Source: a virus. Taken from it: a DNA stretch of 64,000 nt. This document shows, piece after piece, positions 20,152-62,291 of this stretch (within the stretch, counting starts at the first letter, position 1; each line of letters opens with the position of its first letter). Below the pieces are notes generated by a model. The model was not told the DNA's origin and made no database searches. It saw only the letters and a program-made list of their open reading frames with translations. The DNA lies in IMG/VR virus record IMGVR_UViG_3300042558_004148, positions 62,001-126,000 of that record; one strand, 5' to 3'. Made by a program: the position numbers and the translations under genes.

Positions 20152-23100
20152 ATGGCAGATATAAGACTTAAGTTTTTCAATAAGGAGGGTAATCCATTAA
20201 ATTTCGATTATATTGGACCAACCGGAGCTAATCCTTTAGATTCCAAATTTACATACCGTACATCCATATCGGGTGCTAGTAATCCTGGTGATCTTGATAT
20301 CACAGAATTTCCAACATATTATAATTTCTTATTCAATGCTGAGGATCTTAATGCATTTGATATGACCTCATGGTATACTGAAGCTGTTTATTGCTTAGAT
20401 AGAGGTACCGAAATATATCTTGAAGGATCTGTTGCTGGTCAGAATGACTTCAGAGGAAAAATATCAGCTGTTAATCTGTTAGGTAACCAATTAACGATAA
20501 CTATACCTAGTGACTATTATTCTGGACAAAGTATAATCAGTCCAGATAATCAGATATACTTTACCACACCTTATAAAAATAGACCCGGTGGATATTTTAA
20601 GGGAAATATTTATTTTGATCCGGTATCTGCTAATCTATACGAGAACGAGCAAATATTTGTTGTACAGGAATTTTATAACGTAACTACATCACAAATTACA
20701 TATGGACTTCCTCATACCGGCGCAACAGGAGCTACTGCTTCACCACAATGGAGAAGTAGATGGTACAATGATAATTATGGCGAAACTGACGTTTCGGAAA
20801 TAATATTCACTTATTCAATATCTGATCAATTGGATGGTGGTGATGGTGAGCCATTAATAGTTAGCTACCCTAACATGATTTTTGATGTTGATGTTGATCC
20901 TAACGATTTCTATTCTAATGGATACGTCAATACAACAACTTCATCCATTGATTCCAGTGCACTCCCAATAAATGTTGCCTTAAATGGACCAGAGGGTGCG
21001 GAAAATATTTATGAGAGAAAACTTATAATTGATGATATATCAACTGGAACACCAGAGAAAATATTGGAGGTTGATTACTATGGACAAATAATAGGTGAGG
21101 ACGAGAGATTTAAAGTGCTTTTAGCAAATCTGGGGAGATCTTTTTATAATAGTGATTCAGTTATACTTAGAGATCATGATCCTGCAGAACCTTTACCTAA
21201 TTACTTAGAGATAAACGAGAAGAGAAAAGAGCTTATGGTAGCTGGTGAGGAAATATTTCCTTATATTGGTAGTTATAAGGGTCTTATTAATGCTCTTAAG
21301 TTTTTTGGTTATCAGGATCTTAGAATAAAAGAATACTGGTTAAATCTTAAATATAATGGACTAAGAGTAGAATCGCCTATTCAGCAGAATAAGAATTTTT
21401 TAAATGCTATTAATAAACAGCAATCGCAGGGATATAATATGTCATATCAGATTGGTGATATATTGGACAACCCTAATTCTGGTAAATATAAGCTTACTCA
21501 AACCTACGGACCTAATAAAAATGGAGAATATGTTCTGGATGTTACATCGGAGGATACATTAGTACCAAGTAGAACATACAAAAAAACGTCACTATTTGGA
21601 CTTTATTATGATCTTAATAAAGTAACCGGTGAGGAAGACGAATTTAATTTACCGATAGTAGAGGACGCTTTTAAATTCACACAAGAGGAAGTACTTATTA
21701 AAATATTTGCTCTGAAGGAAAGATTGAAGAGGGATTATCTACCATTAAACGCCAGAATTATAGATATAACTGGTGAGGGTATTTATTTTGGTGTATATAA
21801 TACCAAATCCTGGACTGATATAATGGGAAGATCCGATTTTGATTCAGGCTTCGAGTTTGATTTCTATCCTAATCCGGATTTCGGTTTTTTAGAAGATCTA
21901 AGAAACTTTTCCACACGACCATTAGCTGGTGCTATACAAAGTCCTAGTTCATATAATAACAATTATTCTTCAACTGTTCAGTTTCTAGGTGGTACTGGAA
22001 GTGCCATTTATTTTAGTGGAAATCTACCGAATGGATCTACTGGACCTAATCCTATATTAAACCTATACATAGGTCAAACATACGAATTTAGCGTTTCCGA
22101 TACTTCCACCTATGGTTATGATCTTATAATTACAACCGATCCGAATTTAACACAGATAGATCCACTCGGAATAATTAATAATGGTGCAACCGGAGGTAAT
22201 TCAATTACATGGTACGTAGAACCTAGCCAAACTTCACCAGTATATTATTATTCTTCGGTAAATCCTTCATTATTGCTGGGTACTATTAATATACTACCCC
22301 CTATATTATCTGATTTAGGAAACATAGTGAATCCGCTAGATTCACAACAAATTTATAATAGCCAACAGAATCAATCGATGTTAAGTGCTATAGATAATTT
22401 CTATAAGCTTAAGCAGGAGGGGAAAATAATAGAATTGGGTGACGATAAATACGATCCTGTTGCATACATAGATCCAAATACTGGACAGCAGTACGACGTT
22501 CCTATTGGAATGCCAGTAATACTTGAACTATTTCCTGATATTTGGACATGGAACGAACTTAATACTAGCTGGGATTCCATAATGATACCTGCATATCGGG
22601 TAGGCGATAGAGTTGAGGTTCCATCTGTCCCATCATTCGGTACAGTTGTTGGAGTTAGTTACTCGACGGGCCAATATAATGTCCTTCTAGATCCACCTTA
22701 CAACATAACGACACAGTTTGGTGAGATGGAACTATTTGCAACAACCCAGGTATTTTTATTATTAACTTGGAGTAATATAGATTTTTCGAATGCGATGGAG
22801 ATAGAGTGGATAGTCGATAAAACCACCACTCAGTCAGGATCGCCTTATAATTTCAATTTTAGAGGTCCTATAGCGGACTTTTATAAAATGGCACACTTCT
22901 TACCATACAGCGGAGATTATAAGATTACGTGCAATGTATATGATGCCTTTAATGCTAAAAGCACTGTCATTAAGAATTCTATAATCAAGGTTCAACCAAA
23001 AACCATAGATATCGATTCTTGGACTAGATACAGAGAGGTTGAAAATTATATATGGGATAATGTTGATCGAGGATGGGACTCATATAAATCAATATGGGAA

Positions 23101-24912
23101 TATCCTGCAGAGGGAGATAGTATAGAGGTTCTAGAAAAAACAATACCTTCTGAGATTCTGAAATTTGCTACGTATGGGAATAAAGCCGAAGAGGGTCAGA
23201 GTTTATATGTTAAAACTAATCTAGATCCTGTCGGAGCAACCGGTGAGATATTATTATCTCAGAATGTTGTAGCGATAGATGAGATATATTCACTTCAGAT
23301 ATTTACTGGTCAATACGGATCAGCCACGGTATCTACCATAACACCTCATGGACTAAATGATGGTGATGAATTAACAATAATAGGAAGTATACCTGAAATA
23401 GATGGTAGATGGACAGCAAATATAGTTTCCCCTACTGTATTTACTATACCTTCCGTAATTTCAAATTCATGGAACGGTGTTGTTCTCGAGACAACCCCGG
23501 TAAATAGATATGTTATAGATCCAACTATATACACGACACAAAAAATTACTGGAGCTGGTTTAATAAAGGTCTATGTAAATAATAGAGAAATTGGAAGTGC
23601 TGATGCAGGTGACACATTATATCACACTGCAAATGCAATAACTTCTTCGATAAACTCACTAAGAACATACCCGGACTATTTTGCATCTTGTCTGAATCCT
23701 AGTACGGATCCTGTCTCTATTATAATATATGCTCCTGATGAATTAGGAGCCGATCAGAATGGTGTTCCGCTATCTGCTACTGTAACGGGAACATTATCAC
23801 TAAGTTCCATATCTGGAACTCTGGAGAATGGAGTAAGTCCTTCCGAAACATATGTTTATTGGTCTGAAAATTCAGAAATCTACCCCAATGATAATCTAAG
23901 ATTTTGGGGAACTAAAAATCTGGACTGGCAAATATTTAATGAGACTAGCTGGAATGATGGATATGCACATAGCTGGTATGATTTCGAATTTAATAACGAT
24001 TGGTTAGGTGGATATGAATTACATACAATATTACCCGGTGACCACGTCAAAGTAAGTACTGGTAATTCAACATACCCGTTCCCAGTTGGTGTTACATTAA
24101 CCAGTCCTGGAAGTTCGATGACTGTACAAGAAGTTGCTGATCAATTAAATAGTTCTGGCGAAACGCATATAACTAATTTTTACTATAGACCTATACCTAG
24201 CGATACCGGATCATTAAGCACAATAACCGGTCCTATTAATCTGGATCTTACTAATGCGTCGGTCCCTGTTAGTACATACCCAGCTCCGCCTTCACTAATA
24301 GGAGGTAGTAATGTATTGATACCTAATTTCGGTTACACTGGAGGTACTCCTATAACAACAACGTCTACGACAACGACGACAACAATAGCTCCTACCACTA
24401 CGACAACCACGACTACGACAACCACGACGTCGACAACAACAACGACCACAGCGGCACCTACAACGACTACAACAACGACCATAGATCCTTGTTTACTTGC
24501 TGGTAATGCTGTAATGATTTATCCGACTACGACAACCACGACGTCGACAACAACAACAACAACGGTACCCATAGGACAAGTTATTATGAATAATCTAGAT
24601 AATACCGGAACTATTGAGGATGTGCAGGTGAATTCGAATTCTATTCTGGTAAGTCCAGGAACATTCCCGGTATTACCAAACACAACCGGTGTAGGCAGTT
24701 ACGGATACGGGATACCAGGACTTTCCCAGATAGAAGTAAGTGTTGGTGCGGTGACAATGTATACGGCCGTAAATCTATCATTAAGTACTGGATATACAGA
24801 TTGTCTTTTACTTGATCCGTTTGCAGGGTTCGTAGTATTCTCGATGGTAGATTTATCAACAGCACCAACTATAACAATAACACTAGAACAGCAAGGAACC
24901 GCGTGTGCATAA
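20152..24912 (+). CDS. Giant baseplate wedge-like protein with poly-Thr tail
   Basis: A 1586-residue protein, downstream of gp6 as gp7 is in T4 (gp7 is about 1030 residues). Residues about 365-395 contain IFPYIGSYKGLINALKFFGY and a following DLRIKEYW. This resembles the conserved core of large wedge proteins, but the gp7 match is inferred. Around 820-850 is an SH3/KOW-like strand set (GDRVEVPSVPSFGTVVGVSY). An Ig/PKD-like part follows near 860-950. The C-terminal region carries threonine tracts at residues 1402-1443 (42 residues, broken by IAP and AAP) and 1459-1471, then a final beta domain. Such tracts suggest an O-glycosylated, extended linker exposing the tip domain. No signal peptide. 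Confidence 0.75.
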   Translation: MADIRLKFFNKEGNPLNFDYIGPTGANPLDSKFTYRTSISGASNPGDLDITEFPTYYNFLFNAEDLNAFDMTSWYTEAVYCLDRGTEIYLEGSVAGQNDFRGKISAVNLLGNQLTITIPSDYYSGQSIISPDNQIYFTTPYKNRPGGYFKGNIYFDPVSANLYENEQIFVVQEFYNVTTSQITYGLPHTGATGATASPQWRSRWYNDNYGETDVSEIIFTYSISDQLDGGDGEPLIVSYPNMIFDVDVDPNDFYSNGYVNTTTSSIDSSALPINVALNGPEGAENIYERKLIIDDISTGTPEKILEVDYYGQIIGEDERFKVLLANLGRSFYNSDSVILRDHDPAEPLPNYLEINEKRKELMVAGEEIFPYIGSYKGLINALKFFGYQDLRIKEYWLNLKYNGLRVESPIQQNKNFLNAINKQQSQGYNMSYQIGDILDNPNSGKYKLTQTYGPNKNGEYVLDVTSEDTLVPSRTYKKTSLFGLYYDLNKVTGEEDEFNLPIVEDAFKFTQEEVLIKIFALKERLKRDYLPLNARIIDITGEGIYFGVYNTKSWTDIMGRSDFDSGFEFDFYPNPDFGFLEDLRNFSTRPLAGAIQSPSSYNNNYSSTVQFLGGTGSAIYFSGNLPNGSTGPNPILNLYIGQTYEFSVSDTSTYGYDLIITTDPNLTQIDPLGIINNGATGGNSITWYVEPSQTSPVYYYSSVNPSLLLGTINILPPILSDLGNIVNPLDSQQIYNSQQNQSMLSAIDNFYKLKQEGKIIELGDDKYDPVAYIDPNTGQQYDVPIGMPVILELFPDIWTWNELNTSWDSIMIPAYRVGDRVEVPSVPSFGTVVGVSYSTGQYNVLLDPPYNITTQFGEMELFATTQVFLLLTWSNIDFSNAMEIEWIVDKTTTQSGSPYNFNFRGPIADFYKMAHFLPYSGDYKITCNVYDAFNAKSTVIKNSIIKVQPKTIDIDSWTRYREVENYIWDNVDRGWDSYKSIWEYPAEGDSIEVLEKTIPSEILKFATYGNKAEEGQSLYVKTNLDPVGATGEILLSQNVVAIDEIYSLQIFTGQYGSATVSTITPHGLNDGDELTIIGSIPEIDGRWTANIVSPTVFTIPSVISNSWNGVVLETTPVNRYVIDPTIYTTQKITGAGLIKVYVNNREIGSADAGDTLYHTANAITSSINSLRTYPDYFASCLNPSTDPVSIIIYAPDELGADQNGVPLSATVTGTLSLSSISGTLENGVSPSETYVYWSENSEIYPNDNLRFWGTKNLDWQIFNETSWNDGYAHSWYDFEFNNDWLGGYELHTILPGDHVKVSTGNSTYPFPVGVTLTSPGSSMTVQEVADQLNSSGETHITNFYYRPIPSDTGSLSTITGPINLDLTNASVPVSTYPAPPSLIGGSNVLIPNFGYTGGTPITTTSTTTTTTIAPTTTTTTTTTTTTSTTTTTTAAPTTTTTTTIDPCLLAGNAVMIYPTTTTTTSTTTTTTVPIGQVIMNNLDNTGTIEDVQVNSNSILVSPGTFPVLPNTTGVGSYGYGIPGLSQIEVSVGAVTMYTAVNLSLSTGYTDCLLLDPFAGFVVFSMVDLSTAPTITITLEQQGTACA
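24352..24567 (+). repeat. ACN-codon (poly-Thr) low-complexity DNA with 34-bp direct repeat
   Basis: Threonine codons (ACA, ACG, ACT, ACC mixed) run from 24355 to 24480 and from 24526 to 24564. Within them, the same 34 bases occur at 24410-24443 and 24524-24557. The mixed codons argue for selection at the protein level. The exact 34-base copy argues for a recent duplication or recombination that created the second tract. Confidence 0.85.
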
Positions 24913-24966: not shown

Positions 24967-26166
24967 ATGGCTACAGCTACTATAACTTTAACCACTGCGG
25001 GAACTGGAACAGGACCATTTGATCTGTATTCCGATTTTGATGGATATGTTACCCCATTTGAAACTGGTGTTGATAAATCATTATTGGTTTCTGGATATAC
25101 AACATCATTGGTTTATAATGGAACAACTATAATTAGGGTTCAGTCCACAAGTATACAGTGTACAAATTATATAGATTTGTCAGTATCAGGTATAACTACC
25201 ACAACCACGACATCAACATCAACAACAACAACGACAACAACTCCTCCGGTGCTATGTGTATGTTATACAGTGGTTTATACTGGACCCCCTCCACCTCCAC
25301 AATTTTATACTGGTACAACGGATTACTCATATATTGATTGTTCGGGACTTACCGTGAATACAATAGTATCAGAAGGTTACCCCGTTGATGTTTGTGCTCA
25401 AGAAAACAGTATTATAATAACCGGTGGTGACGAACTCGCTGGCTGGGACGTGTCACTGTTTAATTGCTGTACTAGTAATCCAATGGATCTTAGTTATGGT
25501 GTAAATATTAGCACAGTTTGTAACAATCCGCAGCTTGTGTCTGTTTGTGCTGATACAAATGATATATGTACCGCAACAGTATTGACAGATTCTGATTTTA
25601 ACCAGAATTGTCTTACTACACCTGCATCTGCAGGATATTATGGAGATGGAACAAACTATAGATATTGGGATGGATCAACATTTACTACCGGATGTACTCT
25701 TTGTACTGGATGTTTAGTTGCTGACACATTAATAACATTATCTAACGGGACAACTAAATTGATACAGGATATACAGGTTGGCGATGTATTGAAATCCCTT
25801 GATGTGGCAGGAATGCCTCTGGCACCGGATCAATGGTATCATTGGAGCAGTGATATATTGGATTACATAAATTCCACATCAACTGTGATCGGTGTATCAA
25901 TCCATGAATTTGATTCCGTAATAAACATTAATAACGGTAAATTAATTGCAACCTACACCCATAACCACGTAGTTAAGCAAAATGACGTATGGTACATTAG
26001 AACAACATTCGAATTGAATGTTGGTGATGTGTTATTGGATATAGATAACAACGAATTTGAAATTACCTCATTGGTTGTTGTAAATGCACCAATAACTGTA
26101 TATGATATTGATGTGAATAACAGTAATTTATATTTTGCAAATGATACATTAACTCATAACAAATAA
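24967..26166 (+). CDS. Thr-rich tail protein with C-terminal Hint (intein-like) domain
   Basis: A 399-residue protein. Residues 1-76 are an Ala/Thr/Gly-rich beta domain. Residues 77-92 are a Thr tract (T6-S-T-S-T7), followed by a Pro/Cys-rich segment and a Cys-rich domain to about 248. A Hint domain fills 249-399. It has Cys249 opening CLVADTLITLSNG (block A), QDIQVGDVL, THNH at 331-334 (block B, T-x-x-H), and VYDIDV...NLYFANDTLTHNK at the end (blocks F/G with His397-Asn398). The residue after Asn is Lys, then stop, so canonical splicing to a C-extein is impossible. N-terminal thioester formation or Asn cleavage may still act. Preceded by an AATATAA-type A-rich leader. Confidence 0.85.
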   Translation: MATATITLTTAGTGTGPFDLYSDFDGYVTPFETGVDKSLLVSGYTTSLVYNGTTIIRVQSTSIQCTNYIDLSVSGITTTTTTSTSTTTTTTTPPVLCVCYTVVYTGPPPPPQFYTGTTDYSYIDCSGLTVNTIVSEGYPVDVCAQENSIIITGGDELAGWDVSLFNCCTSNPMDLSYGVNISTVCNNPQLVSVCADTNDICTATVLTDSDFNQNCLTTPASAGYYGDGTNYRYWDGSTFTTGCTLCTGCLVADTLITLSNGTTKLIQDIQVGDVLKSLDVAGMPLAPDQWYHWSSDILDYINSTSTVIGVSIHEFDSVININNGKLIATYTHNHVVKQNDVWYIRTTFELNVGDVLLDIDNNEFEITSLVVVNAPITVYDIDVNNSNLYFANDTLTHNK

Positions 26167-26223
26167 TAAATTACATGATGGAATTTATTACTATTAGGAG
26201 AGTATAATTATAAAAATTTGGGT

Positions 26224-27192
26224 ATGATAAACAAAAAAATAACCTTTATTTGCGCACAGCCGGATGTGCCTTATTTTCATTGGCAAGTGGAGGTACTAAT
26301 CCATAATTTTATGAAAAGTGGAATAAATCCCAATTGGATAGAAATTCTATTTGCCTATGATGAGTCAATATCACCAGAGGGATCTGAGTTGGCTAAAAAA
26401 TACCCATACGTTAGATTTTTTTTCTACAAGAAAACTCCGGTTGAAAACTACGGATATATTCCAATTTTAAGACCGGATATATTGGAACAGCATTTTCTTA
26501 AATATCCTGGTCTTTCAGATGATAATATATTCTATCATGATTCTGATATCATCTTTAGAGAACTTCCTGACTTTAATTCATTGATTAATGATGATGTCTG
26601 GTATCTAAGTGACACGGTTTCCTATATAGGATCAGATTATATTAAAAGTAAATCCGAGCAAATTTTGGAAGATATGTGTGACATAGCTGGAGTTTCCAGG
26701 GATCTTGTTGAAGCTAACAATCCAAATTCAGGAGGTGCGCAATATCTTATGAAAAATATAGATCACCTATTCTGGAGGGACGTTAAATACGTTGCTCTCA
26801 ATCTGTATAAATATATGCTTGATGCTGAGGTGGAGGAGAGGAAAACTCTATCTGAAGAGCAGTTATCTTCTTACAACCCAATACAGAAATGGTGCGCAGA
26901 TATGTGGGCGGTATTATGGTGTGGACTTAAAAGGGGAAGTCAGGTTAGATTATCTGATGAACTTGGATTTAGCTGGGGATCTAGCTGGGGGCAAACAGAA
27001 TGGAATAAACATAAAATATTACACAATGCCGGAGTTACAGATAATGGGAACGGGAAGATGTTTTATAAAGGAGATTATATAAATAATTCTCCTTGGGAAG
27101 CTGATCTATCCACAATAAGTCCCGATGCCAATTCTTATAATTATGTACAGGCCATATTATATGCTAAAGAAATGAGATCTAAACTGCATTGA
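26224..27192 (+). CDS. Glycosyltransferase-like protein (GT-A fold candidate)
   Basis: A 322-residue protein. I start it at the ATG 26224 (MINKKITFICAQPD) rather than the TTG two codons upstream. The N-terminus is a Rossmann-like strand ITFICAQPD followed by a helix and WIEILFAYDES. A DxD motif is at residues 106-108 within FYHDSDIIFRE, the metal/nucleotide-sugar-binding signature of GT-A enzymes. Later segments (SGGAQYLMKN, WCADMWAVLWCGLKRG) resemble the acceptor-side part of such enzymes. It would transfer a sugar from a nucleotide donor; donor and acceptor are unknown. Its place between poly-Thr-bearing tail proteins suggests it glycosylates them, though the host surface is also possible. 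No membrane segment. Confidence 0.7.
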   Translation: MINKKITFICAQPDVPYFHWQVEVLIHNFMKSGINPNWIEILFAYDESISPEGSELAKKYPYVRFFFYKKTPVENYGYIPILRPDILEQHFLKYPGLSDDNIFYHDSDIIFRELPDFNSLINDDVWYLSDTVSYIGSDYIKSKSEQILEDMCDIAGVSRDLVEANNPNSGGAQYLMKNIDHLFWRDVKYVALNLYKYMLDAEVEERKTLSEEQLSSYNPIQKWCADMWAVLWCGLKRGSQVRLSDELGFSWGSSWGQTEWNKHKILHNAGVTDNGNGKMFYKGDYINNSPWEADLSTISPDANSYNYVQAILYAKEMRSKLH

Positions 27193-37257: not shown

Positions 37258-40200
37258 ATGGCAGGAACACAAAATAGTATAAGTTCTTTATTAGCTCAGT
37301 TTCTGAGACTACAAAAAAATTCATTAGAGATTTTAAATGGTCTTAATGAGGCAGCAGTTTCAACAAATGATACTGTAAGCATAGAGGTACTTGACGAGGC
37401 TGGATTACCAAAGAATGCTAATATACCATCATATGGTTATTTAAGAGGTGAGATACAAAGAATAGACAATAATATAAAATCACTTGCCGGCATAGGAGAA
37501 AATTCATCGACGGTAAGAAATCCTGATGGAACATATTCGCAGGTATTTAAGGTCAATACACTAAAGGAACCATCCAGATTGGTCAATCTTACTGTTCCTA
37601 GCACATTTGCTGTTAAGGACAATTGGTTTTTTGAAAGTTTTCTAAGTCCATTACTTTATATAAACATAAATGTAACCGGCCAAATATCAGATAATGCTGA
37701 TAGAATAATGGTAAAGCGAATAATTGCTAATACGACTACCGATGCTCAGAAGGAATATTTTGATCTACAGCTTAAAGGTAGAAATGATTTATCGTATGAA
37801 TCATTTATACAACTATTAGATGATAATGGTATCGGATATTTCGTTGATGAGGATATTGTACAATTACCATTAAGAACAATAAGATACATTGGTGATTTTG
37901 GAGTTCTTAGTTACTATGACGATACTACGACAAGGAACGATCAATTTGGAAATCCGGTACAGCAAATAAGAAGAAATTATAAATTAGATAAGCTAAACTA
38001 TACTGACACCGTTACTAATGTTATAGACGGTAAAACATTAAATGTTAAGGATAAGGTTGCTACTCAGGACGGAAGTTTATATGAGATAACTTCAATAGAT
38101 AACGATCAGGCATCAATACAAGCTAAAAGAGTTTCTGGATATCAGCCAATTCAAATAGGCGCAAAATCGCTATCTATATCATCCACCGATTTTGGTGCTA
38201 GATTGGTACAGGTTAATGTGGGTTATAATGAGAGACAGGGAATTTTCTTTAAGACTATAGATGATAACTTTAATATAGTTAGTGCAACTTGGTCAACCGG
38301 TGTTGTTTTTTGGAGTAGCGAGCTACAAACTAAAAATTCTGATGGCGAAATAGTAACACTTGAGAATTATTATTTGAATGAGGTAGCTGATCTTGGAAAA
38401 GTTTTTCTTGGAGCTGCTAAAGAAAATAAAATAACTGCCATTCAGGGACTAAAACCTGATGCACCATTAGTTACTACGGATAGCTTTAAAGTTGTACAAA
38501 TAAATAGACAAGTAACACAATCAACCTCGATAAAGGTTGTTGATGATAAATTAAACCTTAAAACTTCTCTTAAGAGTGAGATTGACTCTCTAGATTCGGC
38601 TATTAATGATGCTAGACTTGAATTAAATACAGGATTAGCTGGTAATAACTCTGTTTCAGGAAGAAATTTCATAACAGCAGCAGATGATGCTGGTGATTTT
38701 GGTAGACGATCTGGTATATTTGGAAGCAATATTAGCACTTCTCCTAGAGGTGTAAATATACAATCCATAAGAGCAAATCTTAATAGTTTAATCGATGAGA
38801 GAACAAAAAAGGTTCAATTATATGCTTCTTTAGTTGATGAGGTAAGCGTGCTTGTTAAGGATGTGCCGCAGATAGTAACCCCACCAAAATATAGAGTAAG
38901 AGGATTTTGGCCAATACCTGCTCCAAAGGAAGATCCGCAGACTGGTAAACAACAGGTTATACAATTCTCAGTAAGATACAGATATCTTAGTGATTCCGGT
39001 GCTGCACAACCATCAGATCAGATAGAATTTGTTGATAATGATGGTCTAAGAAAAAATGCAGCTTTCTCCAACTGGACGGAATATAAGACTGAAATTAGAA
39101 AAAAAGTTTATGATTCTAATAAGGGAGTTTATGTTTGGGCTGATGAGATAACATCCGATTCTGATGTACAGAATATAAACCAATTGGATATAGCGATAAC
39201 CAAAGGCGAGAGGGTGGAAATACAAATATCCTCAATCTCGGAAGCTGGCTGGCCAGAAAATCCGCAAATATCCGATTATTCGGAATCAGTTACTGTAACA
39301 TTTCCTGATGATCTTAGTGTTAATGGAATTGCCGATACCTTGGTAACAAATAACGAGGATGCTGCTGTCGTTAAGGTTCAAAGAAATCTTGATGCACAGG
39401 GTTTACCTAGTCATCTATCCCAACAGTTTACTTCCGGAGATAAAACTTATTATCACGATGCAGTAGGAATTTCCAGTGGTTTTTATAATACAGCAGGGGG
39501 CGTTATAAATCTCTTTGACAAGCTGGTCGAATTACAGAATCAAGTTTCTCTATTGTCTGCACAGATAACTCAGGCAAAAGGAACATTGGAGGTTTATGTA
39601 GTGGATTCATCTAATAATAAAATAAAAGTCTCTAGAGGATCAGTTGTAAAAATAACTGCTGGATTCTTTAATGATATTTATAGTAATCCTTTAACAACTG
39701 ACGCTGGTAAAATAGCATCCTCTACGTATAGTATACAATTATTTAATGCTAAGGCTTCTGCCGTGGAACTTGCCTCGATTATACCTGGTGGTTTATCACA
39801 GAAGGCTCCTGCAACTATAGCACCTCAAACATATCCTACTGGATATGACGATAACCTTAGATATGGTGACTGTCCTATTTCCATAACATCTCTAACAATA
39901 GCTGATTCATCAATAGTTAATAATGCTTATTTTAGACAGGCTCCGCCTTTTGCTTCTGCTAATTCATATGCACAATACATATATCCTAGATATAAATCGG
40001 TTGGTTACGATCAGCAGCTATACAATGGTGGATCATTAGGATCATCTTTCTCCAGTAACTTCAGTGCTTCGTATGCTTATGATGGAGGTTTAAGTACAAC
40101 TAACTTCGGTATATCCGGTACTTATCCGCAAAATGGAACTTTGATGATTCCATACTCACCTTCCGTTACCCCAAGTACAGTTGCTGGTGCTACTGCATCC

Positions 40201-40893
40201 AATATATGGAACGGAACATTCTCAGCTGTTACAGGAGGAACCCCTAACGGAGGTGGTAATATATCGGAATTCTGTATATCTACCGCTCATCCATATTTAA
40301 TATCAATAGGTGCACAGTCTGCTTTTGATACGTACGAGAATCTCGTTAAGCCATATTCGGCTACGAACAAGATATATCCACCTTTTAGACATACGCAAAC
40401 TTTCTGGGGAGATACCAGTCTGGATTTCTATTGGGTTCAACAAACATATAGAGAACCTATAACATTTGCAGCGGGTGCTACCGCTTCCAGAGACGATAGA
40501 ATGTACCCTGATAAATTAGGATTTAATTCGAATGATGAATTCCTTATAGGTAAATATTCATGTGGCGCATATTTATATCTGGGACCAACAAATTCATCAT
40601 CTCTTCAGGTGGAGGGTACAACTTCGATATCTGTTAAGCCGCTATTAAATGGTGATTCCAATGCAATAAATGTTCCTCTAATTTTCCAATTCAGACCGGT
40701 AGATAAAGCAGGTTATATCGGAGGATGGAGAAAATCAGGTAATCTTTCAAATATAACATACACTAAAAAGATTGGTGTTGATATACAAGTTAAGAATGAG
40801 GATCAATTCTCATTTGATGTACAAATTACGGGATCGTATAAAAATGACACGTTGGTTGCTCCAAATTTTGATAGCGGTTTAACCTCAGTATAA
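37258..40893 (+). CDS. Large virion protein with FNIII-like module
   Basis: A 1211-residue protein. The N-terminus is helical (SISSLLAQFLRLQKNSLEIL), like a trimerisation or attachment helix. Residues about 541-684 resemble a fibronectin-III/Ig-like module of tail tip proteins: PKYRVRGFWPIPAPKED, IQFSVRYRYLSDSG, GERVEIQISSISEAGWP and YSESVTVTFP. The C-terminal part is Ser/Asn/Tyr/Gly-rich with a long run of beta strands and a hydrophobic final domain. There is no signal peptide. It is separated from its neighbours by 16 and 20 bases, so it is co-transcribed. It is probably a central baseplate or fibre component; the precise role is unknown. Confidence 0.65.
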   Translation: MAGTQNSISSLLAQFLRLQKNSLEILNGLNEAAVSTNDTVSIEVLDEAGLPKNANIPSYGYLRGEIQRIDNNIKSLAGIGENSSTVRNPDGTYSQVFKVNTLKEPSRLVNLTVPSTFAVKDNWFFESFLSPLLYININVTGQISDNADRIMVKRIIANTTTDAQKEYFDLQLKGRNDLSYESFIQLLDDNGIGYFVDEDIVQLPLRTIRYIGDFGVLSYYDDTTTRNDQFGNPVQQIRRNYKLDKLNYTDTVTNVIDGKTLNVKDKVATQDGSLYEITSIDNDQASIQAKRVSGYQPIQIGAKSLSISSTDFGARLVQVNVGYNERQGIFFKTIDDNFNIVSATWSTGVVFWSSELQTKNSDGEIVTLENYYLNEVADLGKVFLGAAKENKITAIQGLKPDAPLVTTDSFKVVQINRQVTQSTSIKVVDDKLNLKTSLKSEIDSLDSAINDARLELNTGLAGNNSVSGRNFITAADDAGDFGRRSGIFGSNISTSPRGVNIQSIRANLNSLIDERTKKVQLYASLVDEVSVLVKDVPQIVTPPKYRVRGFWPIPAPKEDPQTGKQQVIQFSVRYRYLSDSGAAQPSDQIEFVDNDGLRKNAAFSNWTEYKTEIRKKVYDSNKGVYVWADEITSDSDVQNINQLDIAITKGERVEIQISSISEAGWPENPQISDYSESVTVTFPDDLSVNGIADTLVTNNEDAAVVKVQRNLDAQGLPSHLSQQFTSGDKTYYHDAVGISSGFYNTAGGVINLFDKLVELQNQVSLLSAQITQAKGTLEVYVVDSSNNKIKVSRGSVVKITAGFFNDIYSNPLTTDAGKIASSTYSIQLFNAKASAVELASIIPGGLSQKAPATIAPQTYPTGYDDNLRYGDCPISITSLTIADSSIVNNAYFRQAPPFASANSYAQYIYPRYKSVGYDQQLYNGGSLGSSFSSNFSASYAYDGGLSTTNFGISGTYPQNGTLMIPYSPSVTPSTVAGATASNIWNGTFSAVTGGTPNGGGNISEFCISTAHPYLISIGAQSAFDTYENLVKPYSATNKIYPPFRHTQTFWGDTSLDFYWVQQTYREPITFAAGATASRDDRMYPDKLGFNSNDEFLIGKYSCGAYLYLGPTNSSSLQVEGTTSISVKPLLNGDSNAINVPLIFQFRPVDKAGYIGGWRKSGNLSNITYTKKIGVDIQVKNEDQFSFDVQITGSYKNDTLVAPNFDSGLTSV

Positions 40894-46384: not shown

Positions 46385-47941
46385 ATGCCAAATATAAATA
46401 TACAATCTTTAGAATATTCGGACTCCCAATCGGAAATGTTCGATAAGGTAAATCTTAATTTTGATGAGATTATCGAAATACATGGGGGATCGCAAGGTAG
46501 GATAGGACCTACTGGTGGTGATGGAGCCATCGGTGATAGAGGTAAGCCTGGACCTACTGGAAATACAGGAGTCAGAGGAAATAGATGGTTTATTGATATT
46601 TCTCAGCCTTCCGGGCCAGGTGACACTGTTATTTATGGTGATTATTGGGTTAATAGAGATTCTGGTATTATTAATATATTTACTTCATTGGGATGGCAAC
46701 CTACTGGATATAGCTTATCCGACGGAGATTCCATATTTAAAAATTCGGGGTCCATATTCTCCACTGGTATTACCGGATCAGCAATATCATTAAATCAGAT
46801 AACACCATCCGATTATCTGGTCATAGTAGCCGATAAAACACCAGGTTCTGGGGTTTTAAATCAGAATCTAGCTAAATTTTTATTATCGACTGATACCACA
46901 GTAAATGATTCGCCAATATTGGAATTCTCAAAAACTAATATTGAGGATGGAAATATAGCTGACTATTCACAACATCCAATATTTAGATGGAATAATTTTA
47001 CTCCGACCGACGATGGCTTGGTATTAGAAATACCAGGGGGATCATTTATAATAGGAGCATCTGGTGGATCTGATATAAAATTCAATGAATTTATAATGAA
47101 TTCACCAGGTACAATATCATTTAATTATGGTACTACCTCCGGATCAGGAATATACTCCACTGGTGGATTTGAGATTAATGCTCCCAGCGGACAATTTAGT
47201 ATACTGAGTTCAAATATAAGCATTACCGGGGGTACATCCTCAATATCAGCTCCGGTTCAATTAAATCCAAGCTTACCTGATGGTGTTTTTAGTACTTATT
47301 TATATAGCGGTGGAACCGCACCAGCACTAAGAACTACCAGATCTGGAGATACCTTTTCTACTCTATCCCATTCCGTTTATAATATTAGTTTGGAGTCATC
47401 AAATGGAGGACAAAGAGACTTCTTTATAGATACAAGGGGTAAAATTAGAACCAAGAAAACTGAAACAGGTATATCATATGCTAATACTACCACTGATGTA
47501 ACGAGTGCTATAACATCTCCATATACAGCAAATACTAACTGGTATATGTTAACCAGGACAGGAACTCCGATAGATTCATCGGTCCTACAGGATGGTAACA
47601 CTATGGTCATAAACCCAGTTGTTCCTACCAGTGGATTTATAGGGATTGGTATTTATACAGGATCCGATTATTCATTAGGTACTACTGGTGGTATTAATAG
47701 AGGTGAATCTATAGATATAAATGTTCTTGTAAGTCCCAATGATCTGGTATATCCCAGTAACGGAATAACATTTATAGGAAAGGGAACTACCTCCGGTAAC
47801 ATTACTAGCTTGGTTGAACTTTCTAATATAGCATCCTCATTGGATCTAACCATAGCTAGAGGTGTTACCGGAGATTATATAACGGTTTTTTATAGATCAT
47901 ATGGAATTAATGGCGGATCTGGAGGATCTTTTACTATTTGA
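46385..47941 (+). CDS. Collagen-like fibre paralogue 1
   Basis: A 518-residue protein, first of three consecutive paralogues. Residues 1-34 form the shared N-terminal module (SEMFDKVNLNFDEIIEIHGG). Residues 38-66 are Gly-X-Y collagen-like triplets (GRIGPTGGDGAIGDRGKPG). Residues 67-95 carry the shared W...QPxG...DYW motif. A conserved 'LLSTD...ILEFSKT...HPIFRWN' block follows. The C-terminal part is Gly/Ser/Thr-rich and diverges from its siblings. Collagen-like stretches in phage fibres trimerise. It starts two bases after the preceding gene's stop. Predicted short tail fibre or adhesin. Confidence 0.75.
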   Translation: MPNINIQSLEYSDSQSEMFDKVNLNFDEIIEIHGGSQGRIGPTGGDGAIGDRGKPGPTGNTGVRGNRWFIDISQPSGPGDTVIYGDYWVNRDSGIINIFTSLGWQPTGYSLSDGDSIFKNSGSIFSTGITGSAISLNQITPSDYLVIVADKTPGSGVLNQNLAKFLLSTDTTVNDSPILEFSKTNIEDGNIADYSQHPIFRWNNFTPTDDGLVLEIPGGSFIIGASGGSDIKFNEFIMNSPGTISFNYGTTSGSGIYSTGGFEINAPSGQFSILSSNISITGGTSSISAPVQLNPSLPDGVFSTYLYSGGTAPALRTTRSGDTFSTLSHSVYNISLESSNGGQRDFFIDTRGKIRTKKTETGISYANTTTDVTSAITSPYTANTNWYMLTRTGTPIDSSVLQDGNTMVINPVVPTSGFIGIGIYTGSDYSLGTTGGINRGESIDINVLVSPNDLVYPSNGITFIGKGTTSGNITSLVELSNIASSLDLTIARGVTGDYITVFYRSYGINGGSGGSFTI

Positions 47942-47968
47942 TATATAGTGTAATTACCATTTAATAAT

Positions 47969-49639
47969 ATGACAGAGTTACAGTTACTTAGAATAGAAGA
48001 AGGGGATTCTCAGAATAATATAATTGATAAAATTAATTATAATTTTACCGGTATAATTGACTTCGGTGGAGGCCCTTATGGAAAGATAGGTAAAATTGGA
48101 CCTGATGGAAATAAGGGAGCTACTGGCCCGGTGGGTTCATACGGGGATCTCGGAAGGAGAGGTAGTATATGGAACATTGGTCCGACACAACCCCAAGGAA
48201 ATAACGTATATTTATCAGATTATTGGATGAACACTGATGAATTTAATAATATATACGAGTTCAACGGAAATTCTTGGGCATTGAGTGGCATAAACGTAAG
48301 ATCCAGGGATTTATTTTATGTTGATGGTCCAGTAATAACATCATCGGGCAACAGTACTAAAAGGGGTTATTACATATCATCTTCTCTTCCCTTAAGTTAT
48401 ACAACAGTAATTAGTGACGTCCAGATAACAAGTGGATCAAGCACCAGTTCCCCTAATGCGATACCAAATCCGCAGTATAGTAAATTCGTTATATCCACCG
48501 ATGGACTTAATCCGAATAAGAATATACTGGAGTTTAGTAAACACCAGTATTCTTCGAATTTAGCATTTACACAAAAAACACCCAGATTTTATTGGACTCA
48601 GGGAGCGACATCAGCAAGAGGAAATTATGGACTTAGCTTGCTTAGTGGATATAGATTCGATATAAACACTTCTTCCGATTTATATATTGCTTCCATTTCG
48701 TCAGGTATTAATTTAACCTCAACTGGAATCAATATGACAACGCCTAGTACTTTACCATTCGGTATAAATGCAACATCGAGAATTACATTTAATTTTTCGA
48801 CAGGTTCAGCCATATTCTCGACCAGTAATATAAGTTTCTCAGGTGGATTATTTTCTTTTAAAACCCCGATATATTCTTCTACCCAAAGTAATAGTGTTAT
48901 TCCAACGATGAGGTTGGCTTCAGCGTCGGCTAATACTGGAAATATTAGATATGTTTATCCATCCACTGGAACTAAGCTAATAAATCTATTTAGAAGTGTT
49001 CAATCTGGATCTATTATAAACTATGTAGATGGGTCTGGATTATTTTATTTTAATAAAAGAGTTAATTCCATACAGAATGCACAATCTGTAACTGCAACAA
49101 CGACATCGGTAGTTGCAGGAACACAGATAGATTGGGTTACAGTTCTTCCCTCTATCTCATTAACGTCAACCGGCAATTATGTATGGTCGAATAATGGAAT
49201 GGATTTAGTTGTAACAAAACCAACATCTACTGCAAACCAGAGAGGATTATGTTTATGGACTCCTGCCACTGGTGGAGCACCTGGTGGAAATGGTGGGTGG
49301 CTAAAATTATTGGAAAATGGTGAATCGATAAACTTTAGAGTTCATAGTGGCAATTCAGGAACTTCTAGTACCGATAATTTTAAATTCATTGGACTAAATA
49401 CTTCAAATAATCAGGGAGATGCACCTAATAATACACCATCTTCAAACTATTCATTTATTAATTTATCTGCATCTAATGGGGTTGGAGCATCTACAATAGA
49501 CATAACAATAGTTAATATACAAGGAACCGGATCAACTGCGGGTAACAGAAGATGGTTCAAAGTATATTATTCAGCATGGGGAGGTGGATTAACAACAAAC
49601 CAATGTGGTGTACTAACAACATATAATGCAACAGCCTAA
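47969..49639 (+). CDS. Collagen-like fibre paralogue 2
   Basis: A 556-residue paralogue of its neighbours on both sides. The N-terminal module (NNIIDKINYNFTGIIDFGGG) is followed by collagen-like triplets at 38-66 (GKIGKIGPDGNKGATGPVG) and the QPQGNN...DYW motif. The shared 'FVISTDGLNPNKNILEFSKH...PRFYWTQ' block follows. The C-terminal half is Ser/Thr/Asn-rich beta sequence of its own type, with a Gly-rich stretch (PATGGAPGGNGGWLKLL). The three copies differ most at their tips, as expected for adhesins under diversifying pressure. Confidence 0.75.
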   Translation: MTELQLLRIEEGDSQNNIIDKINYNFTGIIDFGGGPYGKIGKIGPDGNKGATGPVGSYGDLGRRGSIWNIGPTQPQGNNVYLSDYWMNTDEFNNIYEFNGNSWALSGINVRSRDLFYVDGPVITSSGNSTKRGYYISSSLPLSYTTVISDVQITSGSSTSSPNAIPNPQYSKFVISTDGLNPNKNILEFSKHQYSSNLAFTQKTPRFYWTQGATSARGNYGLSLLSGYRFDINTSSDLYIASISSGINLTSTGINMTTPSTLPFGINATSRITFNFSTGSAIFSTSNISFSGGLFSFKTPIYSSTQSNSVIPTMRLASASANTGNIRYVYPSTGTKLINLFRSVQSGSIINYVDGSGLFYFNKRVNSIQNAQSVTATTTSVVAGTQIDWVTVLPSISLTSTGNYVWSNNGMDLVVTKPTSTANQRGLCLWTPATGGAPGGNGGWLKLLENGESINFRVHSGNSGTSSTDNFKFIGLNTSNNQGDAPNNTPSSNYSFINLSASNGVGASTIDITIVNIQGTGSTAGNRRWFKVYYSAWGGGLTTNQCGVLTTYNATA

Positions 49640-49641
49640 AT

Positions 49642-51753
49642 ATGCACTTCAATACTAAATATATTTTTCAAGGTGACTCAAAAAGTGAAGCCTTAGCTAA
49701 GATTAATTACAACTTTGATCAGATAGTTTCTTTTGGTGTTGGTCCTAATGGTCACCAGGGTGCTAAAGGAGCTACCGGAATATATGGGCCAGCTGGATTC
49801 AAGGGAATTAGCGGAACTACTGGTAATAGAGCAAGTAAATGGTATAGCCAATCAGCTCAACCTGCCGGAAGTCAACAATATGATTTATGGATAGATTCCA
49901 ATACTGCGGACGGAGTTGTTAATCAGAAGGGCTCAACCGGTTCTTGGACCGATACTGGATATAGACTTTTTAGTTCACTATACTTTAAATCTTATGAGTT
50001 TATACAGGGACCGGCCGGGGTAACAGATAAATATGTCATTGGTCTAAATAATGTCGGTGCATCAGCAGCATATACCAACCTGGTAATAAGTGATTCTGAT
50101 ATGAGTATATCTGATATAAATCCAAACAACTCCAAGGTATTAATTTCTACTGATGATCAGATAAATTTGCCAGTGATGGGATTTTCTAAGTCCGGTGCTA
50201 TATCGAACTCGAGACCATCTTTCTATTGGAAAAATACTGGAATTCTGGGTGATTTAGAATTCAGATCAGGTGGAATATTTAGGATAAGCTCGTATCTTGA
50301 TACTTCTATAAATACCGGCACTTCAAGATTAAATATATCAGGTAACAGAATAAATTCAACCTCCCTTAATTATAGCTTATCTGGTGTAGGTGATTTTACT
50401 ATAGCATCGAATAACACGATTGGTGCAGGAACTTTCTTTAATGTTAATGCATCAAATTTGGTCTTCAATCAGCTAGCTTATGATCATCTTGGTTCAATTG
50501 TAATATCCGCTGCAACTGGATCTTATTTATTAAATAATACACCTACAACGGCATTTGCGGGAAGTAATATCGAGCTGGAAGTAAGTAGCTTAAATAACTC
50601 GATATTTGAATTTACCGGTATAGGTGGAGGTAATATACTTTCTGCTAAACCTCAGGGAACAGTTTCAAGTGGTAATTTTTCGCAAACTATATTTGGGTCA
50701 ACGGGAGGAGCCACTGGTGGAACTGGTGGTCCATATTCATATCATGTCAGAAGACTACAGCAAATAAGACAAAACACCATAAATGTAAATAATGTTACCT
50801 TATATCGTGCTACCTTTGGCTCAACGGCAAATCTAACAAATGTTTTTGATATAAGAAATCTCACATTTTGGGAATCTGATGTTATAGTGGTTACTCCGCT
50901 TTCCTATACTTCGGCCGGCGGTGTTTATTTATATGTTCCAGCCGATTATACGCAGAGCATATATCCAATATATTCCTATAATAGATCCAGAACATTTAGA
51001 GTGATGCTAGATAATACTGAAACCAATCCAACGGGTAGAAATATACTTGGTCTTATTGTAGACTTTAGTCAATTTATTTCCAGTATAGGTACGGTGGTAA
51101 AAGTTTACGTCCAATTCCCTTCGACAACATGTCAATATGTTGATCTTACCTGGTTAGCATACGCTAATGCAAATAACGCTAATACCAGGTTATTCTGGAA
51201 AACATGCGATGGCAGGGGAGGATATTTAGATCTGACTAATCTATATTCAGTTGGTGTAGAACCACCTCCATCTAGTGGAACTGCTGGGGGTACCGTTCCT
51301 ACTAGCGGTGGATCTTCTCCGGGTGGAGGTGGATGTCCGACTCCTGATATGCCTATTATGATAAGTCCGGAATTAAGTATATTTGCTGGTGATCTTCAAA
51401 TCGGGGATGAAATATATACCATACATGAAATTAGTAACGAATGGGGTTATTATAAAGTCTCATATATAGAAACTACGATACAGCCTATAGTTTCTGTAAA
51501 TATAGGAGGAAAAATATTAACTGTTTCTGATACGCATAAATTTTTATTAAGTTCGGGAGATTATGTTTCTGTTAGTGAAATTGAAATAGGATCCGAAATA
51601 AAAACGATGAACGGAACTTCAATACTTGAATCAGTGCATGCTATTGGAAATGGTGAGGTACTAAAAATAGAAATAGAAGATGCTCATACATATGTTATTG
51701 ATAGTATCATATCTCATAACAAGATAGTAAGATCATTAACAATTGAACCATAA
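49642..51753 (+). CDS. Collagen-like fibre paralogue 3 with Hint domain
   Basis: A 703-residue third paralogue: shared N-terminal module (EALAKINYNFDQIVSFGVG), Gly-X-Y triplets at 37-62, QPAGS...DLW motif and 'VLISTD...PVMGFSK...PSFYW' block. After its own beta-rich middle, a Gly/Ser/Pro linker (residues about 540-564) leads to a Hint domain from Cys565 (CPTPDMPIMISPEL) through LQIGDEIYT, SDTHKFLLSS (His632) and HTYVIDSIISHNK (His692-Asn693). The Thr of the usual T-x-x-H is Ser here. Ten residues (KIVRSLTIEP) follow Asn693. The first is Lys, not Cys/Ser/Thr, so full splicing is not expected; cleavage is possible. Confidence 0.8.
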   Translation: MHFNTKYIFQGDSKSEALAKINYNFDQIVSFGVGPNGHQGAKGATGIYGPAGFKGISGTTGNRASKWYSQSAQPAGSQQYDLWIDSNTADGVVNQKGSTGSWTDTGYRLFSSLYFKSYEFIQGPAGVTDKYVIGLNNVGASAAYTNLVISDSDMSISDINPNNSKVLISTDDQINLPVMGFSKSGAISNSRPSFYWKNTGILGDLEFRSGGIFRISSYLDTSINTGTSRLNISGNRINSTSLNYSLSGVGDFTIASNNTIGAGTFFNVNASNLVFNQLAYDHLGSIVISAATGSYLLNNTPTTAFAGSNIELEVSSLNNSIFEFTGIGGGNILSAKPQGTVSSGNFSQTIFGSTGGATGGTGGPYSYHVRRLQQIRQNTINVNNVTLYRATFGSTANLTNVFDIRNLTFWESDVIVVTPLSYTSAGGVYLYVPADYTQSIYPIYSYNRSRTFRVMLDNTETNPTGRNILGLIVDFSQFISSIGTVVKVYVQFPSTTCQYVDLTWLAYANANNANTRLFWKTCDGRGGYLDLTNLYSVGVEPPPSSGTAGGTVPTSGGSSPGGGGCPTPDMPIMISPELSIFAGDLQIGDEIYTIHEISNEWGYYKVSYIETTIQPIVSVNIGGKILTVSDTHKFLLSSGDYVSVSEIEIGSEIKTMNGTSILESVHAIGNGEVLKIEIEDAHTYVIDSIISHNKIVRSLTIEP

Positions 51754-52875: not shown

Positions 52876-55191
52876 ATGGCATTTACAACTACATCTAAAT
52901 TTGTTCAGATAACACCATACCTCCTAATGGAGTATATGTACGCTGATGAACCAACCCCGGAGACATATTTTGTTAATAACGGACCTGTTACTGTGGGGTA
53001 CGATAAGTTGGTAAATGACTACATGAATAATAACGTGCAGGTATTTAATAGCGAATCTGATTATTCAATAACACATAATACCACGGAGAATAGTGTGGTG
53101 AGAATAGGGGAAAGCTCATTTGTTACTTTAGATTCGAATCTGATAATACCTTTTAATGACTATAGTGATGAATTAACTAATACTGTTGATCTACCTATAA
53201 CATTTCCATCGAACATACAGGTTGTTTACGATACTGTTAGATATCACATTAGGGCCGGTTATAACCTAAATAATATAGATGGTATTATAATGGGAATAGA
53301 ATACCAGGATCAGAACTTGGAGTTTGTTACGGTTTCACAAATCCTTATAAAAAAAGGAACGGAGCAGGACTATTATTTGAATCCTAGCCCAGTTACCATA
53401 GGATCTAATATCTATGATAAGTATTTTGAAATAAAAGTACCAAATTTAAAAGATATGGGTGATAAGTATTTAACTGCATCAAATGTTTTTAAACCACAGA
53501 CACTCGCATCACTAATAAGCTCCAGTGGAGAAGGATTTATATACGGTTCCCCCATCAGAATAAGCGCTTGGCAAATTCAGAATACCGTTGATTTTAATGG
53601 ATATCAAAGGTATAATTCTTCCCTGATATCTATTTTATCATTAGAGCAGGAGGATCCATTTTCTAATATAGGAGCAACAATAAAAGAATCTGACCAGGGT
53701 CAATTCTTTGAATATTATGCAACCGATAATGAGGGATTTATAGAGGACTTTGTTCTTTTCCAGAATTCAATTGGTAATTCATACTATATAAGTCATGAAA
53801 TAGAAGTTCTTGAACAAATTGGGGCAGCTTTTATACAGACGTCACAATTTCAATCAATACAAACTACCGCATACGATCTACCTAATTATTATAGACCCAT
53901 AGTTAGAAATGCTGGTGTTGCTGCTAGTTTTACGTTGAGATATACCATGTCGCTGGTTAACAATGTTAATCAAAATAGAACAATAAGAATATCAACATAT
54001 ACATCATCCAATCCTTCACAATGGGGAACTAATATAACACCAATATCACTTAGTAATTTTCCACAGGTTCAGAAGATCTATAATAGGATATATTCGCAGG
54101 CTGATATTAAATTGGGTAATAATAATCAGAATAAGATAAGGGAAATAATTAAATACAGCAATGTTTTTATAGATCAAAATTATGTTACTGCAACTATAAA
54201 TAATCTAAATTTCGTTGATAATACTTTGAGTAATATTGATGGGGCAGGAAATAGTACAGCATATGGTACGGGAAAACTAACCATAGCGATATCTCCTTTT
54301 GATAATTTCTATAAATTTAAGTTCATTAAAAGTGGTCCATCTGGAGATCCAGTTGCAATAGATCTTAGTAGCTCCGGTAAATTTAATTTATCTTTTGTTA
54401 ATCCAAAGGGTAATAAAATACAGATACCATCATTGGACGATAAAGGTATAGCTAATCCATTATCTGGAGAATTAGCATTTAAGATAGATGAATCTATATC
54501 CATGCAGATATTACAGATAACCGATAGAAGATTTTTTATAACTAATGGTACCACAGTAAGTCCAGCAACAGGTTCTGTTACTGGAAGTGAGACAATAAAG
54601 GTTTCATCAGGGGTAAGCAGTAATGTTCTGGAGAAGAGAATAGAAAGCGTAGTCGCAACAAGGAGAGACGAGAATCAATCGATATCAAGTGTGGGTAATA
54701 GCGTAAGTATAGGAGGATCTACCTTAGCCAGTACCGTTGGTAATACCAGCTCCGTTATGTATTGGGGTTATTGGAAAAAAGATGGGGAAGCTGACTTTGT
54801 AACGGGTCCAACTGCTGCTCCTGCTCCTATCATAACAACGTCAGGAAGCGGAACAAGTGGAACTGGAATAATAGGTACCTTGGCCCCTGCCAGATCAATA
54901 GTTAAATCCATACCTCCTGCATTTATTACATCCGGACAGGCCTCGGCTATAACAACTCCGAGAGCAAATACATCGCAGTCATTGAGGGGTAATATTTTGA
55001 TCTCTGCTTTAAGCGCTGAAATGGCTGGATATAAAGCAATAGGTTGGGCTGATTCGACAGTAATGCAATATTTCTTAAATCCAGGTAAACCCGGATATAT
55101 CAAATATCCTAATTTAACTAAGTCTGATTTTGTTAAAGCTGCTGATGGTATACTTTCACCAGCTAGCATATCTTCAATTTCAGGGCAATAA
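52876..55191 (+). CDS. Large virion protein
   Basis: A 771-residue protein not recognised by sequence. The start (AFTTTSKFVQITPYLLMEYM) and many Tyr/Asn/Ser-rich strands mark it as a virion protein. Internal features include VDFNGYQRYNSSLISILSLE, then QEDPFSNIGATIKESDQ, and a Gly/Ser/Thr-rich section around residues 570-640. The Ala/Gly/Thr/Pro-rich linker near 655-680 (ITTSGSGTSGTGIIGTLAPA) is probably flexible. No membrane segment or enzyme motif. It sits right after the membrane protein and before the tube-like gene, so a tail or head-tail role is plausible but not shown. Confidence 0.65.
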   Translation: MAFTTTSKFVQITPYLLMEYMYADEPTPETYFVNNGPVTVGYDKLVNDYMNNNVQVFNSESDYSITHNTTENSVVRIGESSFVTLDSNLIIPFNDYSDELTNTVDLPITFPSNIQVVYDTVRYHIRAGYNLNNIDGIIMGIEYQDQNLEFVTVSQILIKKGTEQDYYLNPSPVTIGSNIYDKYFEIKVPNLKDMGDKYLTASNVFKPQTLASLISSSGEGFIYGSPIRISAWQIQNTVDFNGYQRYNSSLISILSLEQEDPFSNIGATIKESDQGQFFEYYATDNEGFIEDFVLFQNSIGNSYYISHEIEVLEQIGAAFIQTSQFQSIQTTAYDLPNYYRPIVRNAGVAASFTLRYTMSLVNNVNQNRTIRISTYTSSNPSQWGTNITPISLSNFPQVQKIYNRIYSQADIKLGNNNQNKIREIIKYSNVFIDQNYVTATINNLNFVDNTLSNIDGAGNSTAYGTGKLTIAISPFDNFYKFKFIKSGPSGDPVAIDLSSSGKFNLSFVNPKGNKIQIPSLDDKGIANPLSGELAFKIDESISMQILQITDRRFFITNGTTVSPATGSVTGSETIKVSSGVSSNVLEKRIESVVATRRDENQSISSVGNSVSIGGSTLASTVGNTSSVMYWGYWKKDGEADFVTGPTAAPAPIITTSGSGTSGTGIIGTLAPARSIVKSIPPAFITSGQASAITTPRANTSQSLRGNILISALSAEMAGYKAIGWADSTVMQYFLNPGKPGYIKYPNLTKSDFVKAADGILSPASISSISGQ

Positions 55192-61739: not shown

Positions 61740-62291
61740 ATGATAATGAAATCATTTACTGAATTTACTAACAATGTATCCGAAGCTAGCTCCGAGGGCA
61801 GCACAGGGAAGACTACATTTAGTAGATGGCTTAGAGATATGAACACGAGAGTTGGTGATGATATGAAGGATTCTAATTACTATTCTAGTTATTATGATTC
61901 TGATGACAAATATCAAGCTGCAAGAAGAGCAACCAACCTAATTCCTAATGTATTTAGATTAATTACCGGAGCTGGAGCTGCTGTTGCAGATTTCTTAACA
62001 CCTAAAGGATCAAGTAAAGAGGAGAAAAGTTCAAATAAGTTTACTAAGGACGAACTAAAAGCTAAAAAGACTGAAATCCTTAATAAATGGGAAAGGGATA
62101 ATATTGGTGATAAAAAAGTTACCGATGCTGATGCTGAAAAGTTCTATAAATCTGGAGTGATCAAGGGTAAAAAATACTTCGGGAAGGATTTTGATCCAGC
62201 AAACCCTAAGAATAAGGAAGAGGAAATGTACGCCGATTATATGAATGGTATAATGGAGAGGTATTATAAAAAGACAAGCAATGCACAATAA
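61740..62291 (+). CDS. Small protein with FxxF...VSEA N-terminus
   Basis: A 183-residue protein starting MIMKSFTEFTNNVSEASSEG (a second ATG two codons in, at 61746, is equally plausible). The N-terminus has Lys-x-F-x-x-F and a VSEA site. The rest is Lys/Asp/Ser-rich and mostly helical, with a hydrophobic stretch around FRLITGAGAAVADFL (about residues 77-91) that might be a weak membrane segment. It is not recognised. The N-terminal pattern resembles the T4 capsid-targeting sequence (MKTYQEFIAEA), which directs internal proteins to the prohead and is cut after Glu. It overlaps the next gene by 11 bases. Confidence 0.6.
   Translation: MIMKSFTEFTNNVSEASSEGSTGKTTFSRWLRDMNTRVGDDMKDSNYYSSYYDSDDKYQAARRATNLIPNVFRLITGAGAAVADFLTPKGSSKEEKSSNKFTKDELKAKKTEILNKWERDNIGDKKVTDADAEKFYKSGVIKGKKYFGKDFDPANPKNKEEEMYADYMNGIMERYYKKTSNAQ

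Follow-up and report, generated by a model that had tools for sequence, protein, structure and literature searches.

Background

A-type bacterial intein-like (BIL) domains were reportedly described by Amitai in 2003 and Dassa in 2004. They are mostly seen to cleave, although their thioester can also be ligated to a free amine (PMC4031507, PMC7664689); the residue that follows their His-Asn has been called diverse in a review, as we understand it (PMC7765530). PT-HINT domains normally sit directly before a toxin domain (PMC3482391), and the fibres of phages K1F and T5 carry C-terminal intramolecular chaperones that remove themselves (PMC10579305). Terminal Hints on phage proteins were known before as annotation lines, i.e., "large intein domain protein" in phage NCTB and "putative phage tail protein, contains intein domain" in Erwinia phage Y3, and among the papers we searched none describes a terminal Hint on a structural protein of a phage. 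Here we describe such proteins in a 64,000-nucleotide window (positions 62,001 to 126,000) of IMGVR_UViG_3300042558_004148, the record (373,485 bases, 373 kb) of a giant environmental phage, and place the arrangement as a variant of BIL domains.

Two phage proteins with a terminal Hint domain

The protein encoded at 24967-26166 consists of an N-terminal 76 aa followed by a Thr/Ser tract, a Cys-rich region, Cys249-Asn398 and a last residue, Lys399 (Table 1), the translated ORF ending in NLYFANDTLTHNK ahead of tandem TAATAA stops. Translation confirmed the positions given in the initial annotation for the block A Cys249, the terminal HN and the protein end at His-Asn-Lys. It had also listed THNH; the conserved block B motif is T329-Y-T-H332, the second His of THNH not being conserved outside the clade to which this protein belongs (hereafter the window clade). 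A tail or virion role is likely, because a baseplate wedge homologue lies upstream (17875-19599) and tail-fibre homologues lie downstream (46385-51753); the name "tail protein" can thus be drawn from gene context only, and no fibre homologue was found for the 399-aa protein itself.

The terminal Hint is not a solitary case. A profile search of the phage's own genome found a second, different one at the end of a fibre (49642-51753) that does have fibre homologues. Its borders read ...SSPGGGG|CPTPDMPIM...IISHN|KIVRSLTIEP, the core of its model has a pLDDT above 90 and its best structural match is BIL2. We refer to the Hint of 24967-26166 as family 1, and to that of 49642-51753 and its numerous relatives as family 2.

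Two neighbours of the 399-aa protein deserve mention. The 1586-aa protein at 20152-24912 also has long Thr tracts and is without a Hint. Directly after the Thr-tract gene, 26218-27192 encodes a 324-aa protein (phrog_4417, unknown function), for which a sequence search of the PDB gave no match and in which the stretch FYHDSDIIF resembles the DxD of GT-A glycosyltransferases; that it might O-glycosylate the Thr tracts is a thought.

Table 1 Features of the terminal Hint proteins and their Hint-less counterparts in the window
Feature	Position	Strand	Basis
Virion-type protein with terminal Hint, 399 aa	24967..26166	+	ORF and relatives
Thr/Ser tract, aa 77-92	25195..25242	+	Translation
Cys-rich fast-evolving domain, aa 94-242, RYWDG motif just before the Hint	25246..25692	+	Co-conserved with the Hint; omega about 0.56
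CxxC motif C243-x-x-C246, before Cys249	25693..25704	+	CxxCx(1-3)Cys1 in 19/19 clade members
Hint domain 1, Cys249-Asn398, 150 aa, without homing endonuclease	25711..26160	+	Sequence, profile, model, Foldseek
Block B T329-Y-T-H332	25951..25962	+	T and H invariant in alignment A3
Asn387 at the block F His position	26125..26127	+	N in 18/18 clade members
His397-Asn398-Lys399, protein end	26155..26163	+	LTHNK and stop identical in all complete clade members
Collagen-like tail fibre, 703 aa, with second terminal Hint	49642..51753	+	phrog tail fibre matches
Gly561-564 linker before Cys565	51322..51333	+	Sequence
Hint domain 2, Cys565-Asn693, S629-x-x-H632, block F His682	51334..51720	+	Sequence, profile, model
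10-residue tail KIVRSLTIEP after HN	51721..51750	+	Sequence
Hint-less orthologue, 771 aa, of virion proteins with terminal Hint in other phages	52876..55191	+	Alignment
Hint-less homologue, phrog_29329, 1211 aa, of Hint-ending L135/L142 proteins	37258..40893	+	Homology
Hint-less fibre paralogue	46385..47941	+	Homology
Hint-less fibre paralogue	47969..49639	+	Homology

Assignment to A-type BIL domains

By profile, Foldseek and motifs, Hint domain 1 is closest to A-type BIL domains. With phmmer it matched the Tetrahymena BIL 6tmm/6y75 (BIL2) at E 6e-6 and the C. thermocellum BIL 2lwy at E 1.6e-3, and a profile built from relatives lifted the BIL match to E 4.4e-12. An AlphaFold model of 306 aa has a moderate mean pLDDT of 68.5 (about 70-92 in the Hint part); with this model Foldseek returned 6y75 (E 1.9e-10) and 2lwy (E 4.8e-9), ranking BILs ahead of inteins and of Hedgehog (E 1.3e-5). 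These matches are well above chance and bear out the intein-like domain that had been proposed from the sequence. Pfam was less decisive: Hint, PT-HINT and Intein_splicing all matched, but all under their curated cut-offs (e.g., PF07591, PT-HINT, with 18.5 vs 27.7 bits), so that Pfam alone would miss the domain. Hint domain 1 shares with A-type BILs the fold, Cys1, TxxH, the C-terminal His-Asn and a +1 residue (Lys399) other than Cys/Ser/Thr; an alignment of 19 sequences, with identities as low as 28%, shows no variation at Cys1, TxxH or HN, and a wider set shows almost none.

Other Hint classes were considered and rejected. A class 1 intein is excluded since only one Lys and then a stop follow the HN, i.e., there is neither a C-extein nor a +1 Cys/Ser/Thr, and normal splicing is, as first claimed, impossible even with the block A Cys, TxxH and HN present. 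The block F His, common in class 1 inteins if not absolute, is missing in the window clade (Asn387, in 18/18 complete members scored); the same position holds Asp in most of the Erwinia/NCTB group and His in 60/61 of family 2. A Hedgehog reading fails because the single residue after Asn398 leaves no sterol-recognition region, and a PT-HINT polymorphic toxin because the protein stops at Lys399 with no toxin domain and the PF07591 score is too low.

Relatives and placement of the Hint

About 90 distinct relatives were gathered. The family 1 module (aa 95-399) was found in many environmental phage contigs in which N-termini and neighbours vary, the Cys-rich domain and the Hint being kept as a pair across phages in which both are unrelated; no gene was found to travel with the module. 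Also within family 1, a Hint at 25-33% identity forms the end of structural proteins in NCTB, Erwinia, Dickeya and Yersinia phages. Two scans of genome contigs gave no bacterial relatives, and searches of plasmids yielded 2 records and 1 record. These phage Hints are as a rule terminal: among 88 distinct complete ORFs of both families, at most 25 residues follow the HN in 60, 26-100 in 5 and more in 23, and many of the internal Hints are flanked by Gly- or Pro-rich linkers. In the window clade, HNK closes every protein whose end is complete.

Several individual arrangements were also seen. Phage NCTB encodes, directly after a fibre with its own terminal Hint, a stand-alone 153-aa Hint-like ORF (BN7874_135, L080:9698-10159) that is without Cys1 and ends in HNKVD. 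In L096, one of the internal cases, and in L097 (around 6000-6620), the Hint leads into a Gly-rich linker and the stretch KSDLRLKKNI, which looks like the beginning of an S74 intramolecular chaperone. L006-L009 and L018 have, ahead of the Cys-rich/Hint module, Thr-Pro repeats (TPTNTPT..) whose length is very variable in close relatives. Long structural proteins (L175, with a DUF4815, and L141/L144/L145/L157/L161) have an internal Hint, often between Pro-rich linkers, and these Hints also show a Lys after HN.

Judged by alignment, the Hint is an optional add-on that related phages carry or lack at the same place. The 52876-55191 protein is 57-73% identical, over its length, to the L114, L116, L118, L119 and L143 proteins, which run on with a Gly-rich linker, a Cys and a Hint where it stops; 37258-40893 shares 31-33% identity with the Hint-ending L135/L142. 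The same is seen in cultured phages, i.e., Dickeya phages JA11/JA29 end in ...ITARNPK, whereas the proteins of AD1, of Y3 and of related Erwinia phages run on from this point as ...ARNP..GC-Hint. The Hint-less orthologues end only a few residues away from the Cys1 junction, and because they stop where the Hint starts, the optional cassette appears to begin where a protein that is complete without it ends. These are orthologues of related Hint proteins; for the 399-aa protein itself, none without a Hint was found. Dickeya phage AD1 is a "hairy" myovirus (PMC6143709), and hairy phage CBB is reportedly without Hint domains (PMC5259590); in AD1 (L045) and its relatives, the Hint-bearing collagen-like fibres might be the hairs.

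Selection and inheritance

The Hint of the window clade is under strong purifying selection and the Cys-rich part changes fast. Across 12 members the median pairwise omega is 0.10 for the Hint vs 0.56 for the Cys-rich region before it, and in the pair closest to the window protein 0.12 vs 0.81, figures that are rough as synonymous divergence is high in many pairs. Since Cys1, TxxH and HN are conserved in all close relatives and omega is low, the activity of the Hint appears to be kept. We find it very improbable that the Hint stays on the protein uncleaved and serves as a knob for structure or binding, or that its processing is switched by the CxxC beside Cys1 and normally off: the spacing CxxCx(1-3)Cys1 does recur throughout the clade, and disulfides at the catalytic Cys switch inteins (PMC4031507, PMC6195587), but if the domain were not catalytic, it would be difficult to see why every catalytic position is under pressure.

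The cassette could also be a self-removing add-on, near-neutral or selfish, that persists because it is harmless; this would agree with the varying presence of the cassette between orthologues, and an endonuclease would be unnecessary if spread were by recombination among fibre genes. We regard this as extremely improbable in view of the low Hint omega and of the family 2 tree, where Hints group mostly by host protein and not by phage. This grouping points mainly to old inheritance with loss or gain, not to recent hopping; active hopping of the cassette within one genome was set aside on the same grounds.

Proposed self-processing of the cassette

We consider it fairly probable that the Hint is an optional, self-processing C-terminal A-type BIL cassette, which forms a thioester at Gly248-Cys249 and is shed. 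Cys249 would attack the Gly248 carbonyl, an N-S acyl shift aided by T329/H332, and the thioester would be resolved by water, a thiol or an amine; without a C-extein nucleophile and a block F His it would not be passed to a +1 Cys/Ser/Thr. The 17-kDa Hint would thus be released, leaving a fibre protein with Thr tract and Cys-rich domain that ends at Gly248, and Asn398 cyclisation, freeing one Lys at most, would be secondary. Having neither the usual +1 nucleophile nor the block F His, the domain should be unable to splice canonically and probably cyclises only slowly, and to little effect, at its C terminus; shedding by thioester resolution is favoured over transfer and Lys-resolved splicing. 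What we infer is cleavage itself and the bond that would be cut; the papers searched contained no virion proteomics covering these proteins. For the phage, the Hint might be a cap that assists folding or trimerisation and is then removed, or a means of timing activation within the virion. Against shedding, the conserved HN and Lys end exceeds the needs of N-terminal cleavage alone, and the Hint-less orthologues mean that the cassette is dispensable in some phages, which leaves its benefit unexplained.

The initial annotation had proposed that a thioester-activated N-terminal part could be attached to a nucleophile on another protein or on the host surface. The thioester chemistry in this proposal is expected from BIL-A precedent (PMC4031507). 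The transfer itself is possible though not probable; in it, an amine or thiol on a different protein, of the virion or of the host surface, would take over the Gly248 thioester, and the Hint would act as a built-in ligase crosslinking the display part. Gly is the commonest residue at -1, which agrees with shedding as well, Gly-rich flexible tethers precede Cys1, and the closest solved relative of these Hints is BIL2 of the Tetrahymena BUBL1 locus, which pairs BIL with ubiquitin-like domains. BIL-A can also ligate by amine attack on the thioester (PMC4031507). However, the Hint is followed by one Lys only, with no region that could recognise an acceptor, no accompanying partner gene was found (neighbours differ), and Hint-less orthologues exist for three different host proteins; because the N-terminal part manages without the Hint in these phages, simple shedding fits at least as well.

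The residue after His-Asn is a further feature to be accounted for. In family 2, one of the first two residues after HN (+1 or +2) is Lys in 49/51 clusters formed at 90% identity, 40/42 at 70% and 10/12 at 50%, vs a Lys background of about 4.6% overall and 0-6% at +3 to +8 (70% and 90% sets); the binomial figure is tiny and assumes an independence that is absent among related sequences. Orthologues alternate K+1 and xK+2 (L113 vs L117; L114 vs L116), which suggests selection for a Lys within reach after HN. HNK-type ends occur in bacterial PT-HINT proteins too, and we do not claim that this Lys is exclusive to phages.

Such a Lys would suit amine-resolved splicing, in which Asn cyclisation frees the short tail and its Lys amine attacks the thioester, the mature protein gaining a Lys or short tail in place of the Hint. 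This has been proposed for BIL-A (PMC4031507) and is in line with the 40/42 family 2 clusters and with the invariant HN and Lys at the window-clade end. We nevertheless think it quite unlikely here, as the missing block F His of the window clade should weaken C-terminal cleavage and a one-residue product has no obvious use. Unlikely, too, is a phage Hint class in which the conserved Lys stands in for the +1 Cys/Ser/Thr, its amine resolving the Cys1 thioester so that an amide or isopeptide joins virion proteins to their tail or a partner, instead of ester-based splicing. The Lys preference could reveal new thioester-resolving chemistry, useful in protein ligation.

Returning to shedding, the tail of some fibre proteins of this phage is probably removable or activated as a thioester. 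Phage virions would then make recurring use of intein-like chemistry, known so far from annotations only, in the form of a C-terminal cassette that fibres and other structural proteins can remove or activate, and cultured phages with (AD1) and without it (JA11/JA29) make its purpose directly testable.

Comparison with known systems

With the K1F and T5 chaperones the phage Hints would share self-removal of a C-terminal domain on fibres, an analogy of use only, as the chaperones have another fold and are cleaved after a Ser. PT-HINT domains of polymorphic toxins likewise lie near the C terminus of filamentous proteins. The Hedgehog C-terminal autoprocessing domain (1at0) is likewise a terminal Hint, one that acts through a thioester on an N-terminal secreted or display part, but it has a sterol-recognition region where 24967-26166 has one Lys. 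Class 1 phage inteins (gp41-1, the best sequence match of family 2, and terminase inteins) have the same fold and blocks A, B and G, whereas the phage Hints are without a +1 Cys/Ser/Thr or a C-extein and are not at a conserved active site; the terminase intein met in this analysis has HN-Cys. Closest are the A-type BIL domains (2lwy, 6tmm/6y75), which have the same Hint fold, Cys1, TxxH, terminal His-Asn and non-Cys/Ser/Thr +1, are likewise without an endonuclease and occur in variable proteins. In contrast to these, the phage Hints sit on proteins of virion type and, in most, form the extreme C terminus, the HN being followed by 1-25 residues; family 1 has Asn/Asp for the block F His, and family 2 strongly prefers a Lys at +1/+2.
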